Translations under genes and position numbers: made by a program
The notes under the pieces: model-generated
Databases searched by the model: none
Told to the model about the DNA's origin: nothing
What the model saw: only the letters and a program-made list of their open reading frames with translations
Shown: positions 18,815 to 26,557 of the stretch, one piece after another
How the letters are laid out: each line of letters starts with the position of its first letter
Numbering within the stretch: the first letter of the stretch is position 1
NCBI GenBank assembly: GCA_040371205.1
Contig: AP031382.1
Location: 3,407,562 to 3,471,561, forward strand
Reading direction: 5' to 3'
Length of the DNA: 64,000 nucleotides
DNA from: Rhodanobacter sp.
Lineage (GTDB): Bacteria > Pseudomonadota > Gammaproteobacteria > Xanthomonadales > Rhodanobacteraceae

Positions 18815-18850
18815 GGGTGTTCCTGGGTCGGACGCGAAGTTTGGCCGCCT

Positions 18851-18886
18851 ATTGTAGCCGAGCCGTCGCGGATGGGCTGTTACAAT
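18851..18886. promoter_or_regulatory. Divergent speE/speA promoter region with mirrored TACAAT boxes
   Basis: ATTGTA at 18851-18856 is a minus-strand TACAAT, suited as the -10 of speE with a leader of about 30 nt. TACAAT at 18881-18886 is a plus-strand -10 for speA with a leader of about 135 nt. The two are mirror images, 24 bp apart, flanked by GCC and GGC. No good -35 is visible for either. The assignment is by pattern only. Confidence 0.4.
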
Positions 18887-19026
18887 GCCGCTTCCGGCCC
18901 GCCCAGCGCGCCGGCTGGTGCGATCGGCCCCGCGGCGTGCGAGGCTTCCGGCCCTTCGTGCTCATTCGCGTCAAGGCTCGCCGCTGCGACGACATGCCCT
19001 TTCCGTTTGCACAAGGAGACATTCCC

Positions 19027-20925
19027 ATGTCGAAGCCCTGGACTGTGGCCGATGCCCGCCACACCTATGCCGTAGCCCACTGGGGCGACGGCTACGTCGA
19101 CGTCGATGCGGCCGGCGACATCGCGATACGCCCGCACGGCGCGCGCGGCCCGGCGCTGTCGCTGCCGGCCATCGTGGAGCGCGCCCGCGGCGAAGGCCTG
19201 CGCTTGCCGCTGCTGGTGCGCTTCCCCGACATCCTCGCCGACCGCCTCGCGCGCCTGCAGGCGGCGTTCGCCAAGGCCATCGGCGAGTGGAACTACGCGG
19301 GCGGCTATACGGCCATCTACCCGATCAAGGTGAACCAGCAGCGCGGCGTGGCCGGCGAACTGGTGGCCGCGGGCGCGGAAGGCTTCGGCCTGGAGGCCGG
19401 CTCCAAACCCGAACTGATGGCGGTGCTGGCGATGGCGCGGCCCGGTTCCATCGTGATCTGCAACGGCTACAAGGACCGCGAATACATCCGCCTGGCGCTG
19501 ATCGGCAAGAAGCTCGGCCTGCGCGTGCACATCGTGATCGAGAAGCTGTCCGAGCTCGACCACGTGTTCGCCGAAGCGAAGGCGCTCGGTGTCGAGCCCT
19601 TGCTCGGCGTGCGCGTGCGGTTGGCCTCCATCGGCGCCGGCAAGTGGCAGAACACCGGCGGCGACAAGGGCAAGTTCGGGTTGTCGCCGGCGCAAACGCT
19701 TGCCTTGATAGAACGGCTGGAAGCGGCCGGGCTCAAGCACACGCTGAAGCTGCAGCACTTCCACATGGGCTCGCAGATCTCCAACGTTCGCGACATCGCC
19801 AACGGCATGCGCGAGGCTTCGCGCTACTTCGTCGAGCTGTCGCGGCTGGGCGTGCCGCTGGAGATCGTCGATGTGGGCGGCGGCCTGGGCGTGGACTACG
19901 AAGGTTCGCGCTCGCGCAGCCACAACTCGATCAACTATTCCATCGAGCAGTACGCCGCCACCATCGTGCAATCGCTGGCCGAGGCGGCGGACGCGGCCCA
20001 TCTGCCGGCGCCGCACATCCTCACCGAGGCGGGCCGCGCGATGACCGCGCACCACGCCGTGCTGGTGGTCAACGTCAGCGAGGTGGAGGAGGTGCCGCAA
20101 GGCGCGATCCCCGCGCCAGGCAACGACGAGCCGGCCGTGCTGCGCCGCCTGCGCGAGGTACACGCCGAACTCGATGCGCGCCCCGCGCTGGAATTGTTCC
20201 ACGAGGCCCAGCACCACCTCGCCGAAGGCCAGGCGCTCTATGCGCTGGGCCAGCTCGCGCTGGCCGACCGCGCGCACCTGGACGACATGTACTACGCCAT
20301 CGCCAATGCGGTGCGCGCCCGCCTGCTGCCCGGCGAGCGCTCGCATCGCGCTGCGCTGGACGAGCTGGACGAGAAGCTGGTGGACAAGTATTTCGTCAAC
20401 TTCTCGGTGTTCGAGTCGGTGCCGGACATCTGGGCGATCGAGCAGATCTTCCCGATCGCGCCGATCGCGCGGCTGGACGAGCAGCCCACGCGGCGCGGCG
20501 TGATCGTCGATCTCACCTGCGACTCCGACGGCCGCATCGACCACTACGTGGACGCCGAAGGCGTGGACGTCTCGCTGCCGCTGCACGCGCTCAAGGACGG
20601 CGAGAGCTACCGCCTCGGCATCTTCATGGTCGGCGCCTACCAGGAGACGCTGGGCGACATCCACAACCTGTTCGGCGACACCGACGCCGTGAACGTGCGC
20701 GTGGACGGCGACGGCTGGATGTTCGCGCACAAGCGCCGCGGCGACACCACCGACCTGATGCTGGACTACGTGGGCTACGACCTCACCGCGCTGCGCGCCA
20801 GCTACCGCGAGCGCATCGCCGCCGCAGGCGTCGCCGGCAGCGAGGCCGAGGCGCTCTACGCCACGCTGGACGGCGGCCTCACCGCCTACACCTATCTCGC
20901 CGACGACGTGCGCCGCAACGCCTAG
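19027..20925 (+). CDS. speA: Biosynthetic arginine decarboxylase
   Basis: A 632-residue PLP-dependent decarboxylase (E. coli 658) that converts arginine to agmatine for polyamine synthesis. The PLP lysine is Lys101 in YPIKVNQQ. Other hallmarks are GLEAGSKPELMAV, HFHMGSQISN, VDVGGGLGVDYEG and LTCDSDGRIDHYVD. The ATG at 19027 has AAGGAGA at ideal distance. Its TAG stop overlaps the TAG of ntrC on the other strand in the tetranucleotide CTAG. Confidence 0.96.
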   Translation: MSKPWTVADARHTYAVAHWGDGYVDVDAAGDIAIRPHGARGPALSLPAIVERARGEGLRLPLLVRFPDILADRLARLQAAFAKAIGEWNYAGGYTAIYPIKVNQQRGVAGELVAAGAEGFGLEAGSKPELMAVLAMARPGSIVICNGYKDREYIRLALIGKKLGLRVHIVIEKLSELDHVFAEAKALGVEPLLGVRVRLASIGAGKWQNTGGDKGKFGLSPAQTLALIERLEAAGLKHTLKLQHFHMGSQISNVRDIANGMREASRYFVELSRLGVPLEIVDVGGGLGVDYEGSRSRSHNSINYSIEQYAATIVQSLAEAADAAHLPAPHILTEAGRAMTAHHAVLVVNVSEVEEVPQGAIPAPGNDEPAVLRRLREVHAELDARPALELFHEAQHHLAEGQALYALGQLALADRAHLDDMYYAIANAVRARLLPGERSHRAALDELDEKLVDKYFVNFSVFESVPDIWAIEQIFPIAPIARLDEQPTRRGVIVDLTCDSDGRIDHYVDAEGVDVSLPLHALKDGESYRLGIFMVGAYQETLGDIHNLFGDTDAVNVRVDGDGWMFAHKRRGDTTDLMLDYVGYDLTALRASYRERIAAAGVAGSEAEALYATLDGGLTAYTYLADDVRRNA

Positions 20926-22301
20926 CGCCGACGCTCCCGCGAGGCGCCCAGCTTGCGCGTGAGCGTGTTGCGGCCCACGCCCAGCGCCATGGCGGCGTTC
21001 TGCCGGTGGCCGTCGTGCGCGGCCAGCGCCGCTTCCAGCAACACGCGATCCAGCGTTTCGCGGGCGCGGGCATGGATGTCGGCTTCGCCGTCGGCCAGCG
21101 CCTGCGTGGCCCAGGCGCGCAAGGCGTCGCTCCAGTCGCCCGCGATGCCCGGCGACGGCGAAGCGCCGAGATCGGCAGGCAGGATCTCCGCGCCGGGGGC
21201 GATCACGGCGAGGCGGCGGCAAAGATTCTCCAGCTCGCGCACGTTGCCAGGGAAATCGCGCTGCGCCAGCGCCTTCAGCGTGGCCTTGGCGTAGCGCTTG
21301 GGCGCCAGCTTGAGTTCCTGCGCGGCGACGGCCAGGAAATGCTGCGCCAGCAGGGGGATGTCGGTGCGCCGTTCGCGCAGCGACGGCAGCGCGATGCGCA
21401 CCACGTCGAGGCGGTGCTTGAGGTCGGCACGAAATTGTCCGCCGGCCACGCGCGCATCGAGGTCCTGGTGGGTGGCGGCAATGATGCGCACGTTGCAGCG
21501 GATCAGCTCGCGCCCGCCCACGCGGTAGAACTCGCCGCCGGCCAGTACGCGCAGCAGGCGCGTCTGCAGGGCCAGCGGCATGTCGCCGATTTCGTCGAGG
21601 AACAGCGTGCCGCCTTCGGCCTGCTCGAAGCGCCCGGACACGCGCCGTGTGGCGCCGGTGAAGGCGCCGGCCTCATGACCGAACAGCTCGCTCTCGAGCA
21701 GGTCGGCGGGAATCGCCGCGGTGTTGAGCGCCACGAAGGGCCGCTCGCGCCGCGCGCTTTCCTCGTGCAGCGCGCGCGCCACCAACTCCTTGCCGGTGCC
21801 GGTTTCGCCGGTGACCAGCACGTTGAGGTCGCTGGCCGCCACGCGACCGATCAGGCGGAACACTTCGCGCATCGCCGCGCTCTCGCCGAGCAGCGCATGC
21901 GTGGGCGCCGGTGCCGGCGCGGCCGGCGCGGCGGACCGCTCGCGGTCGGCCAGCACGCGGCGCACGGTGGCCACCGCCTGGTCGAGGTCGAAGGGCTTGG
22001 CGAGGTAATCCGCCGCGCCGGCGCGGTAGGCCGCGGCGGTGGTGGCCACGTCGGTGAACGCGCTCATCACGATCACCGGCCCGATGCCCTGCGACTGCAG
22101 CTCTTCGAGCAAAGCCAGCCCGCTTTCGCCGGGCATGCGCACGTCGGTCAGCAGCAGCGCCGGGCGCGACTTGCGCATGGCGGCGCGCACCGCGTCCGCC
22201 GCGTCGAACTCGCGTACCGCGAGGCCGGCGTCGCGCAATGCCGCCGCCAGCACGAAGCGCACGCCGCGGTCGTCGTCGGCGATCCAGATGTCGTTACCCA
22301 T
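20922..22301 (-). CDS. ntrC: NtrC-like sigma54-dependent response regulator
   Basis: A 459-residue regulator with three domains: receiver (1-115) with phospho-acceptor Asp53 in [12 protein letters not shown]+ ATPase with Walker A GETGTGKE (165-172) and the sigma54 contact loop GAFTGA (212-217); and a C-terminal Fis-type helix-turn-helix ([20 protein letters not shown]). Domain order and length fit NtrC (E. coli 469). It overlaps the upstream ntrB gene by 8 nt. glnA is not adjacent, unlike in enterobacteria. Confidence 0.93.
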
Positions 22302-23304
22302 GCGCACGCTCCAGCGGCAGGTACAGCGAAAACACCGTCTCGCCCGGCCGGCTGGCGCAGCGCAGCTCGCCGCCGTGTTCGCGGGCGATTTCGCGCGACA
22401 GCGCCAGGCCCAGGCCGGTACCGTCGGCACGGCCGGAGACCAGCGGCTCGAACAACGTATCGTGCAGCTCCGCGGGCACGCCGGGACCGTCGTCGATCAC
22501 GTCCACGCGCAAGGCGCTGCGCAGCATCCGCGCGCCTGCGCGCACGCCGTGCTCGGCGCGCGTGCGCAGCACCAGCGTGCGTGCGCCGGCCTCCACCGCG
22601 TTGCGCGCTAGGTTGAGCAGCACTTGCTGCAGCCGGTCCGCATCGCCGCGCACGTCGGGCAGGCTGGGATCGTAGTCGTGGCGCAGCCGCGGCGGCCTGG
22701 GCTCGGCCTGCAGCAGCTCGCTCAGGCGGTCGAGCAATTGATGGATGCCCACCGCACCCAGCCGTGCGGCGCCGTCGTGGTGCAGCAGCCGGTTCGCCAG
22801 CGCGGCGAGGCGATCCGCCTCGTCGATGATCAAGCCGGCCAGCGCCTGCAACTCCGCGCCATCGACGCGGCGCTGCAACAGCTGCGCCGCGCCGCGCAGG
22901 CCGGCCAGCGGATTCTTCACTTCGTGCGCAAAGCCGCGCAGCGTGGCGGACAGCGGCGACACGTTGCGGGAACGCTCGGTCAACGCATGCACTTCAACCC
23001 GCAGCCCGCCTTCGCCGTCCGGTTGCAGGCCGACGTCGGCTTCGATCGTGCGTTCGTCGAGCGTGCTGAGCGTGGCCTCGCGCAATTGCACGAAGCGCGA
23101 CTCCTCCAGCGCGCGCTGCGCCTGCGCCAGGTCGCCGGTTGCGCACAGCCACAGCGCCAGCGGCTGGCCGGCCGCGCCGCGCATGCCGCTGCCCAGCAAC
23201 TCCGCCAGCGCGCCATTGAGCCAGCGCACGCGCAGGCCGGCATCGACCGAAGCCACCCCGGTCGCCAACTGTTCCGCCCACGCCTGCCATGCCTTGTCAT
23301 GCAT
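22294..23304 (-). CDS. ntrB: NtrB-like nitrogen-sensing histidine kinase
   Basis: A 336-residue soluble kinase: N-terminal PAS-like domain (1-115), dimerisation/phosphotransfer helix with His127 in GFAHEVKNPLAG, and an ATPase domain with NLARNAVEAGA, DDGPGVP and GTGLGLALSREIA. No membrane segments, as in NtrB (349 in E. coli). It should respond to PII and phosphorylate the NtrC homologue encoded directly downstream. The ATG at 23304 fits the family; the frame opens further upstream toward the tRNA. Confidence 0.92.
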   Translation of the reverse strand: MHDKAWQAWAEQLATGVASVDAGLRVRWLNGALAELLGSGMRGAAGQPLALWLCATGDLAQAQRALEESRFVQLREATLSTLDERTIEADVGLQPDGEGGLRVEVHALTERSRNVSPLSATLRGFAHEVKNPLAGLRGAAQLLQRRVDGAELQALAGLIIDEADRLAALANRLLHHDGAARLGAVGIHQLLDRLSELLQAEPRPPRLRHDYDPSLPDVRGDADRLQQVLLNLARNAVEAGARTLVLRTRAEHGVRAGARMLRSALRVDVIDDGPGVPAELHDTLFEPLVSGRADGTGLGLALSREIAREHGGELRCASRPGETVFSLYLPLERAHG

Positions 23305-23358
23305 TGCACCATCATGGAACGCGCGCCCAAGTGGTGCAATAGCGGGAATGCCCTGATC

Positions 23359-23431
<73 letters not shown>

Positions 23432-23637
23432 ATGAAGGCACCGCCCATGGCGTGGCGGGTTGTGCATGGTAGCGGGAGGGCCAGATATGCGCCAAGCGGA
23501 TGGCGTTGCCATGCGAGCGAACGGCAGCGTGCCGACCTGGCCGCAAACATGCGGGGCTGAGCTTGATCGCATGCCAACGCCCTTGTACGGGCACATGCGT
23601 TGCGGGCGCGCACCGCCATCGTTCGATGCGACTTTTC

Positions 23638-23688
23638 TTGCTTGCGCCAAAGGCTGGGCGTATAGTTACGCGTAACGTTACGCCTAAC
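23638..23688 (+). promoter_or_regulatory. Promoter with tandem 12-bp palindromic operators upstream of the DUF2170 gene
   Basis: A -35 TTGCTT (23638-23643), a 17-bp spacer and a -10 TATAGT (23661-23666) form a good sigma70 promoter. Overlapping the -10 and running over the start site are two head-to-tail 12-mers: GTTACGCGTAAC (23665-23676, a perfect palindrome) and GTTACGCCTAAC (23677-23688, one mismatch). A tandem palindrome at this place is typical of repression by a ribbon-helix-helix protein. Confidence 0.65.
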
Positions 23689-23709
23689 CTATGTGCAGGA
23701 AATCAATCC

Positions 23710-24312
23710 ATGGCCGGTAGCAGGCATCTCAGCCCGGGCGCGAAGCGGCAGAAGGCCCTGCGCGAACGGATGAGCACGATGGGCATGACGATTCCACGCA
23801 TCTACATGTCGGCGGACGAGCAGGCGATGGTGCGGACCCTCCTGCGCCATTGCCGCGGCGAGCGCACCGAACAGTTGATCGCGGGCATGGATTTTTCGCG
23901 CACGCACGCGAAGTGGACTGCGCCGCAATTGTTCGAGGCGCTCCAGGCGGATACCGCCCGGCACGATGCGCTGGCCGACATCCGCCTCGAGGGCATGCCG
24001 CCGGCCGTCGAACTGGCGCTGGCGCGCTACGGCCGGCAGCCGGTGCGGCTGAGCGTGAACGACGAGGAGATTTTCGTGACGACGGTGCTTTGCCGGAAGG
24101 GCGCGGTGAAACAACCGGCGCGCTTCAACGAGGCCTGCCTTCGTCTGGGGCCGACGCTGCCACTGTCAAACGTGGGGCTGGTCGGCAATGACTACATCCT
24201 GTACGGCCAGCTCTCGGCGCATTCGCCGCTGGCCAACATCGTCGAGGAACTCGACGTGTTGGGCCGCAACGCGGCGGAATCGCTGAACGCGCTGTCCGCA
24301 CTGATTCGCTGA
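23710..24312 (+). CDS. YjfI/DUF2170 family protein with predicted ribbon-helix-helix N-terminus
   Basis: A 200-residue protein. The first ~55 residues are basic and contain MTIPRIYMS, a short strand, followed by the helix ADEQAMVRTLLRHCR; this looks like a ribbon-helix-helix DNA-binding unit. Residues about 90-200 match DUF2170 (YjfI) with LPLSNVGLVGNDYILYGQLSA and NIVEELDVLGRNAAESLNAL. The ATG at 23710 has CAGGAA upstream. YjfI proteins occur with PspA-like and membrane-stress genes; function is not established. The tandem operator at its own promoter suggests autoregulation. An SPFH protein gene follows after 250 nt. Confidence 0.7.
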   Translation: MAGSRHLSPGAKRQKALRERMSTMGMTIPRIYMSADEQAMVRTLLRHCRGERTEQLIAGMDFSRTHAKWTAPQLFEALQADTARHDALADIRLEGMPPAVELALARYGRQPVRLSVNDEEIFVTTVLCRKGAVKQPARFNEACLRLGPTLPLSNVGLVGNDYILYGQLSAHSPLANIVEELDVLGRNAAESLNALSALIR

Positions 24313-24515
24313 GGCGTGCTGCCATGCTTCGCTCCACTCTCGAGTACCCGACAGGCTGCCCCGCCGTGCATGGCGCAAGGCACCTGAAACCACGGGCGCA
24401 CGGCACGGGATAACCGCCCGCTCCCCTTGCAACGACTTTATCCGCCGACGGCCCGTGCCGTCGCGACGGACGCGCGCCCGCGACCGAACGCGGACGACGC
24501 GCCCCCCTTCCACGC

Positions 24516-24538
24516 TTGCCCGGCGCCGTGCCGGGCAA
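24516..24538 (+). other. Leader hairpin 25 nt before the SPFH gene
   Basis: TTGCCCGGC (24516-24524) pairs perfectly with 24530-24538 around a 5-nt loop. It lies just upstream of the AAGGA-type ribosome-binding site of the flotillin-like gene. It could be a terminator-like attenuator or an mRNA stabiliser. The rest of the 250-nt gap after the DUF2170 gene shows no gene or clear promoter. Confidence 0.4.
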
Positions 24539-24562
24539 CTCCCTACACAAGGACTTGCCATC

Positions 24563-26557
24563 ATGACCTGGCTCATAGCGACGGCGGCTGCCGTCATCGT
24601 GCTCGCGCTGCTGGTGTATGCCTCCAACGCCATCGTCTACATCCCCAATGACCGCGTCGGCATCGTCGAGCGGCTGTGGGGCGCGCCTTCGCTGTCCGAA
24701 GGGCTGATCGCCCTGAAGGGCGAGGTGGGCTTCCAGCCGCAGGTGCTGCGCGGCGGCCTGCATTACTTCTTCCCGTTCCAGTACCGCGTGCACAAGGAGG
24801 ATCTGGTCACCATCCCGCAGGGCGAAATCGGCTACGTGTTCGCCCGCGACGGCAAGGATCTGGCCGACGGCCAGGCGCTGGGCCGCAACGTGGACGGCGG
24901 CATCGTCGACGTCGCGGCGTTTCTGCGCGGCGGCGGCCAGAAAGGCCCGCAACGCACCATCCTGCGCGAGGGCACCTATGCGCTGAACTTGGCGCAGTTC
25001 GCCATCATCACCGCCAACCGCGTGCATGGCCTGCTGCTGTCGCGCGAGGAGGCCGACACCATCGCCAAGATGGGCGCGGTGCTGAACGAGCGCCGCGGCT
25101 TCTCGCCGGTGGTGATCGTCAGCGGCCAGGCCCGCGGCGGCACCGAAGACACCACCAACGACTTGCTCGGCGTGGTCACCGTGCACGATGGCCCGGTGCT
25201 GCCGCCGGACGAGATCGTGGCGCCGCGCGTCGGCCAGGACCCGACCAACGTGGCCACGTTCCACAACAACTTCCAGAACATCGACGCGTTCCTGCGCGCC
25301 GGCGGCAACCGCGGCTGCCAGCACCAGGTGCTGGTGGAAGGCACGTATTACATCAACCGGCTGTTCGCGACGGTGGACTTCATTCCCAAGACCGTGGTGC
25401 CGGTGGGCTCGGTCGGCGTGGTCGTGTCCTACATCGGCCGCACCGGCGCGGACCGCTCGGGCGAGGGCTATTCGCACGGCGAGCTGGTCGACAACGACTG
25501 CCGCGGCGTGTGGAAGGAGCCGCTGCTGCCCGGCAAGTACGCGTTCAACACCTACGCCGGCAAGATCCAGCTGGTGCCGACTACCAACTTCATCCTCAAG
25601 TGGATGCCGGAGGTGACCGACCTGCACAAGTTCGACGAGAACCTCACCGAGGTCTCGCTGATCACCAAGGATGCGTTCGAGCCGCTGCTGCCGTTGTCGG
25701 TGGTGGTGCACATCGACTACCGCAAGGCGCCGCTGGTGGTGCAGCGCTTCGGCGACATCAAGCGGCTGGTCGACCAGACGCTGGACCCGATGGTCAGCGC
25801 GTACTTCAAGAACATCGGCCAGACCAAGACGCTGATCCAGCTGATCCAGGACCGGGCGGCGATCCAGATGCAGGCCGGCGAGGAGATGAAGGAACGTTTC
25901 GCCGCCTACAACCTGGAGCTGCAGGAGGTGCTGATCGGCACACCGCACGGCAGCGCCGGCAACGCGTCCGGTGCGCGCATCGACACCATCCTCAACCAGC
26001 TGCGCGACCGCCAGGTGGCGATCGAGCAGGTGGCCACCTACGAACTGCAGGAGCAATCGGCGGTGAAGGAGCGTTCGTTGCGCGAGGCCCGGGCCACCAC
26101 CGACATCCAGGCCGAACTGACCAACTCGTCGATCCAGATCGCGATCAAGAAGAACGTCGGCGAGGCCGCCGTGGTGGAAGCCAACAAGCGCGCCGAGGTG
26201 ATCGGCATCAACGCCGACGCCGAACGCCGCCGGCTCACCGCCGAAGGCGACGGCAAGGCCTCGGCGATCGCCGCGGTCGGCAAGGCGGAAGCCTCGGCGA
26301 TCCAGGCCAAGTCGCAGGCGCTGACCGGCGAAGGCGCGCGGCTGCAGCTGATCAACACGCTGGGCTCGCAGTTCGCCGAGGCGATCCGCGACGGCCAGAT
26401 CGCCATCGTGCCGAAGATCGCGCTGGGCGGCGAAGGCGGCGGCCAGGGCATCGGTTCGCTGATCCAGCTGGCCAGCTCGCTGCTGGCCGAGCAGGCGGAC
26501 GCCGGACTCGCCGACGCCAACGTTCGTCCGGCAGCGGGAAACAGCGCACAGGCTTGA
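24563..26557 (+). CDS. Flotillin-like SPFH/band-7 membrane protein
   Basis: A 664-residue protein. It has an N-terminal membrane segment (TWLIATAAAVIVLALLVYA), an SPFH domain opening with IPNDRVGIVERLWG, and a second SPFH-like region around residues 280-420. A long charged coiled coil rich in Ala/Glu (about 480-600) includes EANKRAEVIGINADAERR and AEGDGKASAIAAVGKAEA. A Gly-rich C-terminal tail follows. Flotillins scaffold ordered membrane microdomains. It is longer than typical YqiK. AAGGA precedes the ATG. The DUF2170 gene upstream on the same strand suggests a joint membrane-stress role. Confidence 0.85.
   Translation: MTWLIATAAAVIVLALLVYASNAIVYIPNDRVGIVERLWGAPSLSEGLIALKGEVGFQPQVLRGGLHYFFPFQYRVHKEDLVTIPQGEIGYVFARDGKDLADGQALGRNVDGGIVDVAAFLRGGGQKGPQRTILREGTYALNLAQFAIITANRVHGLLLSREEADTIAKMGAVLNERRGFSPVVIVSGQARGGTEDTTNDLLGVVTVHDGPVLPPDEIVAPRVGQDPTNVATFHNNFQNIDAFLRAGGNRGCQHQVLVEGTYYINRLFATVDFIPKTVVPVGSVGVVVSYIGRTGADRSGEGYSHGELVDNDCRGVWKEPLLPGKYAFNTYAGKIQLVPTTNFILKWMPEVTDLHKFDENLTEVSLITKDAFEPLLPLSVVVHIDYRKAPLVVQRFGDIKRLVDQTLDPMVSAYFKNIGQTKTLIQLIQDRAAIQMQAGEEMKERFAAYNLELQEVLIGTPHGSAGNASGARIDTILNQLRDRQVAIEQVATYELQEQSAVKERSLREARATTDIQAELTNSSIQIAIKKNVGEAAVVEANKRAEVIGINADAERRRLTAEGDGKASAIAAVGKAEASAIQAKSQALTGEGARLQLINTLGSQFAEAIRDGQIAIVPKIALGGEGGGQGIGSLIQLASSLLAEQADAGLADANVRPAAGNSAQA

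Follow-up and report, generated by a model that had tools for sequence, protein, structure and literature searches.

A putative autorepressor joining an UrfF/MazE-like N-terminal domain to DUF2170, with paired palindromes at its own promoter, in Rhodanobacter and its relatives

Introduction

YjfI/DUF2170 proteins are relatives of CesT/Tir encoded beside PspA, with band-7/flotillin partners in some operons and a separate ribbon-helix-helix (RHH) gene as the last gene of some YjfI/DUF2170-PspA operons (PMC11237479). BacA of Pseudomonas aeruginosa (PA3732/PA14_16140; NCBI model NF050185; structure 8q8o) belongs to the bac operon, and PA3732 was given as a 16 kDa protein in 2008 (PMC2587700). Loss of bacA raised the downstream operon products 6.1–13.5-fold in proteomics, and BacA was proposed to regulate its own operon negatively through protein-protein contacts; a sigma-54 promoter was also proposed by the same authors (PMC10948618). 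Contact between BacA and BacB, the PspA of this operon, was described in that work as well, and the AlphaFold2 interaction probability of the pair is 0.981 (PMC13092808).

The locus described here lies in a 64,000-nt stretch of Rhodanobacter sp. DNA (the window) and encodes a DUF2170 protein with an additional N-terminal domain (NTD), followed by a gene for an SPFH protein. By analogy, it resembles the psp operon of Escherichia coli, where a membrane-stress protein, PspA, feeds back on its operon's regulator by inhibiting the sigma-54 activator PspF. The window protein, which is not homologous to PspF, differs in that it would repress a promoter of the sigma-70 type. Compared with the operons of PMC11237479, the putative DNA-binding part is fused to DUF2170 here, and SPFH is present without PspA. 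BacA shares with the window protein the DUF2170 domain, the CesT-type fold and a negative effect on its own operon, proposed here as well, whereas no DNA-binding domain or operator has been described for it, its annotated mass is 16 kDa, it was crystallised without an NTD, and its partner gene is the pspA-like bacB instead of an SPFH gene. In PMC10948618 and PMC11237479, the relevant open-licence papers that mention DUF2170, no description of a DNA-binding domain or operator was found. The first-pass annotation knew of no account of DUF2170 as a DNA-binding regulator; negative regulation of its own operon had already been suggested for BacA, through protein contacts (PMC10948618).

Organization of the locus

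The NTD-DUF2170 gene (YjfI/BacA type, plus strand) extends from an ATG at 23710 to the stop at 24312, encodes 200 aa and is the only DUF2170 gene in this genome. Residues 68–196 (23911–24297, plus strand) match the DUF2170 profile (PF09938, YjfI/BacA) with 85 bits against a cut-off of 27 (E 5e-24), and residues 1–67 have no match in Pfam, DNA-binding families included. The AlphaFold model reaches a pLDDT of about 90 over most of the C-terminal domain, for which Foldseek gave 8q8o (BacA) as the top match (E 3e-10), together with 3kxy, CesT, YbjN and type III chaperones. This CesT/BacA chaperone fold, proposed here to be a partner-binding sensor, is common to the ExsC/CesT/SycE-type secretion chaperones and the YbjN family. 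Unlike the ExsC/CesT/SycE-type chaperones, the window protein carries the extra NTD, and no type III secretion context was seen.

Upstream of the gene, a -35 element TTGCTT (23638–23643, plus strand) and a -10 element TATAGT (23661–23666, plus strand) were read directly from the window, with a spacer of 17 bp. Two putative operators, to which no strand is assigned, follow head to tail with a gap of 0. Operator 1, GTTACGCGTAAC (23665–23676), is a perfect palindrome whose first two bases are also the final two of the -10 element, and it is kept upstream of NTD-bearing homologues; operator 2, GTTACGCCTAAC (23677–23688), is one base off a perfect palindrome. The two 12-mers overlapping the -10 had been pointed out by the first-pass annotation, and their positions, orientation and overlap were all confirmed. 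The promoter has 8 of 12 consensus bases and was not called by a strict consensus scan, although the same -35/-10 arrangement is retained in relatives, the close ones keeping TTGyNN at 16–17 bp from TATAGT. Neither 12-mer has a further match at 0–1 mismatch in the window, and the tandem pattern RTTACNNSTAAYRTTA, with at most one mismatch, occurs at a single place on both strands of the 3.48 Mb genome (one contig). A wider regulon of tandem sites in this genome was rejected on this count.

A tRNA-Met (CAT) gene (23358–23432, minus strand) lies between an NtrB-like gene and the NTD-DUF2170 locus. According to their translations, which were read only, the genes at 20922–23367 (minus strand) are NtrC- and NtrB-like two-component genes, and an arginine-decarboxylase-like gene (18817–20925) lies beside them.

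The N-terminal domain

About 60 residues precede DUF2170, with a conserved core of about 45 residues that consists of a basic helix Q-x3-R-x-R-[ML]-x3-G, an extended segment and a helix. In the window protein, this proposed DNA-binding part covers residues 9–57 (23734–23880, plus strand), and its extended segment reads MTIPRIYM. AlphaFold models of the window protein and of one Rudaea homologue agree on a helix, a low-confidence extended segment and a helix; the strand region has a pLDDT of about 50–70, and the monomer models form no strand there. The second helix of the RHH pattern is not evident in sequences outside the window's group.

Regarding the family of the NTD, the NCBIfam model UrfF (NF041430, "plasmid repression protein F") matches it in 20 of 21 members (best 7e-7), and hmmscan gave weak matches to the MazE-like antitoxin family (PF11455) in 10 of 21 (best E 0.003); these matches fall below the curated cut-offs. 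Alignment with hhalign to one Azospirillum MazE-like antitoxin gave P 2e-7 and a score of 35, where the highest of 100 shuffles reached 18, and a weak collinear alignment to CopB/RepA2, the IncF copy-number repressor, gave P 0.01, above 100 column-shuffled decoys. None of the RHH families of Pfam matched the NTD, and hhalign against Arc/CopG/NikR/Mnt returned a probability of 0.1%, without a significant match. On the basis of these similarities and of the missing Arc/CopG/NikR/Mnt match, the NTD is classed as a putative DNA-binding domain of small size, akin to UrfF and the MazE-like antitoxins and possibly to RHH proteins. UrfF and the MazE-like antitoxins have the same R-x-R-[ML]-x3-G basic helix, extended segment and helix, but they are stand-alone small proteins without a chaperone fusion.

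The N-terminus had initially been likened to an RHH repressor. Its relationship to DNA-binding repressors (UrfF, MazE-like) holds, whereas a match to RHH profiles does not. Canonical RHH membership was rejected as a profile-based assignment, Arc/CopG/NikR/Mnt having given no support, and as a structure-based one, the PDB holding no relative of the NTD. An RHH fold is plausible, and the upstream sites, which are conserved, appear to be operators of the kind expected for RHH proteins, namely tandem short palindromes.

Co-occurrence of the N-terminal domain and paired palindromes

Homologues were taken from 99 relatives, the GTDB contig collection, a class-wide sample and several orders; Pseudomonas was represented by plasmid copies, P. 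aeruginosa lying outside the class and order samples. A site was defined as TTACNNGTAA with no more than one mismatch, located in the 260 nt that precede the domain; distinct sequences were counted. L096, whose N-terminus YRRRLREQGLVKKEVW was missed by the automated NTD pattern, was counted as NTD-bearing by sequence reading. At least one site was found upstream of all 37 NTD-bearing homologues, which come from six gammaproteobacterial families, and two sites were found in 35 of the 37 (L094 has a single weak one). Among 68 NTD-less homologues, one site, a weak one, occurred once and two sites never; the counts are not independent, many of the NTD-less (Xanthomonas) and many of the NTD-bearing sequences being closely related. 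Mononucleotide shuffles of a locus yielded two sites in no more than a few percent of trials. Absence of the repeat pair from orthologues had been set beforehand as a refutation test of the proposal, and orthologues retain the pair.

The relatives that align over the N-terminus have the paired arrangement just upstream in 18 of 18 cases, at a spacing of 11–13 bp, with one copy decayed in L014 and L015. The spacing of the sites is 12–13 bp in Rhodanobacteraceae and 21–26 bp in other families, and the palindrome varies by lineage with its symmetry and pairing kept (GTTACGCGTAAC, GTTACGTGTAAC, ATTACATGTAAT, CTTACATGTAAG, ATTACTAGTAAT). In 33 of 38 loci, the promoter with the best score contains the sites, and several loci of other families have one site in the spacer of a TTGACA-(16–18)-TATA box. 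A conserved NTD, paired palindromes, their strict co-occurrence and their position over promoters are thus features of the family. The site tracks the NTD, and neither the DUF2170 domain nor the downstream pspA, as NTD-less homologues located before pspA do not have it.

The Pseudomonas plasmids pQBR103 and pPma4326F encode full-length proteins annotated as YjfI family, with three sites each, in an operon with PspA, DUF2491, DUF350, DUF1190 and glutathionylspermidine synthase; these operons are of the YjfI/DUF2170-PspA kind (PMC11237479). The plasmid copy of P. psychrotolerans was considered as a truncated annotation, which was rejected, as it has neither an NTD nor sites. No relatives were found in phages.

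In pspA-type Rhodanobacteraceae, VARQV strands go with an outer G.C pair (GTTAC...GTAAC), and strands in which this R is replaced by Q, Y, H, E or I go with 5' ATTAC. This correspondence between strand residue and outer base covers few lineages and is only suggestive, a hint of possible specificity. Separately, a TGTGATTGTGTAAC/TGTGTAGCA element lies about 20–35 nt before the tandem operators in L006, L007, L008, L013, L015 and L034–L037; the operator motif does not account for it, and it may include the -35.

The SPFH gene and the exchange of partners

The adjacent SPFH/Band_7 gene (24563–26557, plus strand) encodes 664 aa. It adjoins the NTD-DUF2170 gene in all eight genomes of the window's group and is missing from nearly all other genomes, which bears out the earlier suggestion of a link to a membrane-maintenance gene. 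Within the group, the SPFH protein is 84–95% identical and the regulator 54–83%. The gap between the two genes is 250 nt here and 92–311 nt across the group, and no TTACNNGTAA was seen in it. A hairpin TTGCCCGGC/GCCGGGCAA (24516–24538, plus strand) just before the SPFH ribosome site recurs in L006, L034 and L035; its Luteibacter equivalent is followed by a T-run and is terminator-like. The hairpin with the T-run suggests attenuation or a separate SPFH transcript. Possible control of the SPFH gene by the NTD-DUF2170 protein is suggested by position only.

Most relatives precede pspA, and SPFH holds that place in the window's group. No PspA (PF04012) match was found in this genome; PspA is absent from six of the eight genomes of the group and is encoded away from the NTD-DUF2170 locus in the other two; one of these has it next to a further DUF2170 gene that lacks the NTD. 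The sister group has pspA directly after the regulator gene, and a DUF2491-like gene follows. Since pspA is next in the sister group and SPFH in the window's group, the regulator and operator seem to have persisted through a change of effector from PspA to SPFH. SPFH homologues in two Rudaea genomes were considered as trans targets and were rejected, having no TTACNNGTAA upstream. Both gene types are found in genome G057: alongside NTD-DUF2170 with SPFH, it has a DUF2170 gene that lacks the NTD and is accompanied by pspA and a potassium-channel-like gene (C1:2980504 and C1:316084; L004 and L027).

Relationship to BacA

The crystallised BacA chain (8q8o) has 146 residues, aligns from window residue 68 on and is without the NTD; therefore, the structural work on BacA could not have seen this domain. 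The NCBI BacA model NF050185 has 206 positions with the NTD included, and it aligns to window residues 11–197. The window protein scores 83.6 bits, under the curated equivalog cut-off of 300, which makes it a relative of BacA but no orthologue as NCBI defines the term. For other family members, the alignment spans model positions 2–204 and scores about 290 bits. P. aeruginosa BacA thus seems to belong to the NTD-bearing regulator family. The simplest reading is that native BacA is longer than annotated, the NTD being left out by the annotated start and, in consequence, from the crystallised chain; the proposed sigma-54 site, upstream of the annotated bacA start, might then be inside the coding sequence. 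If this is correct, BacA would start about 60 codons 5' of the 16-kDa annotation, and TTACATGTAA is predicted in the new upstream region.

Proposed mechanism and alternatives

As a whole, the findings are probably best explained by NTD-DUF2170 acting as a one-protein autorepressor whose NTD would bind TTACNNGTAA pairs. The NTD, probably as a dimer, would bind each palindrome, and two dimers on neighbouring sites would lie over the -10 or the -35/-10 spacer and thereby keep the gene itself from being transcribed. Where genes are packed, the block would extend to the membrane-maintenance gene or genes behind, PspA in most relatives and SPFH here. Binding and repression by the NTD are strongly indicated by the sequence comparisons. 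The C-terminal CesT-like DUF2170 domain would probably bind the product of the downstream gene and in this way monitor the system; repression would be modified by free PspA or SPFH and lifted under membrane stress. That the domain reads free PspA or SPFH, with membrane stress as the signal, is put forward tentatively from the predicted BacA-BacB contact and the CesT fold.

The palindromes could instead serve a different transcription factor, encoded elsewhere, the NTD having another role such as protein contact. Their GTTAC/GTAAC halves do resemble LacI/GntR-type targets, yet the sites accompany the NTD and are lacking before NTD-less homologues that precede pspA, the only tandem in this genome is at the NTD-DUF2170 gene itself, and the relatives of the NTD are plasmid repressors and antitoxins, which makes a separate factor unlikely. 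Activation or dual regulation from the same operator is quite improbable: one of the two sites is upstream of the -35 in BacA-type loci, a position that activators also use, but both sites overlap the -10 or sit downstream of it in the window's group, and loss of bacA raises, rather than lowers, the operon products (PMC10948618), which fits autorepression. It is very unlikely that DUF2170 regulates solely through contacts of its chaperone domain, as published for BacA, with the repeat as a by-product; the CesT/ExsC-like fold and the predicted and reported BacA-BacB contact (PMC13092808, PMC10948618) agree with such contacts, which leave the NTD and its strict pairing with the palindromes unexplained.

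Transcription of the SPFH gene alone, outside the autoregulated unit, is compatible with autorepression of DUF2170 and has a considerable chance, though somewhat below even, of being correct. The intergenic gaps, the recurring hairpin with its Luteibacter T-run and the lack of a visible TTACNNGTAA in the gap agree with it, while the constant adjacency of SPFH in the window's group and its rarity elsewhere argue for a common unit. The autorepressor reading can be broadened, with a chance somewhat below even, to a broad gammaproteobacterial family of chaperone-fused repressors, including start-corrected BacA, that would read PspA or SPFH via the CesT-like domain and act directly on paired TTACNNGTAA at their own promoters, with the effector swapped from PspA to SPFH.

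Implications and stand-alone relatives

If this broader reading is correct, membrane stress would be handled by a switch made of one protein, in contrast to PspF and to two-component control. A concrete operator code is now proposed for the switching of YjfI/BacA-PspA operons, and a putative DNA-binding domain appears to have been overlooked in the published annotation and crystal structure of BacA. Together with the apparent natural swap of PspA for SPFH, they would make it possible to examine the binding to DNA, the sensing of partners and the function of SPFH one by one, using short DNA and a single protein.

Stand-alone versions of the NTD were found in L130 (62 aa) and L131 (67 aa); in both, once reverse-complemented, the match is at 1501. 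Behind the L130 gene lie genes similar to those of RelE- and HigA-type toxin-antitoxin systems. GTAAC palindromes (GGTAACATATTACC, GGTAACATATAACC) lie just upstream in both L130 and L131.
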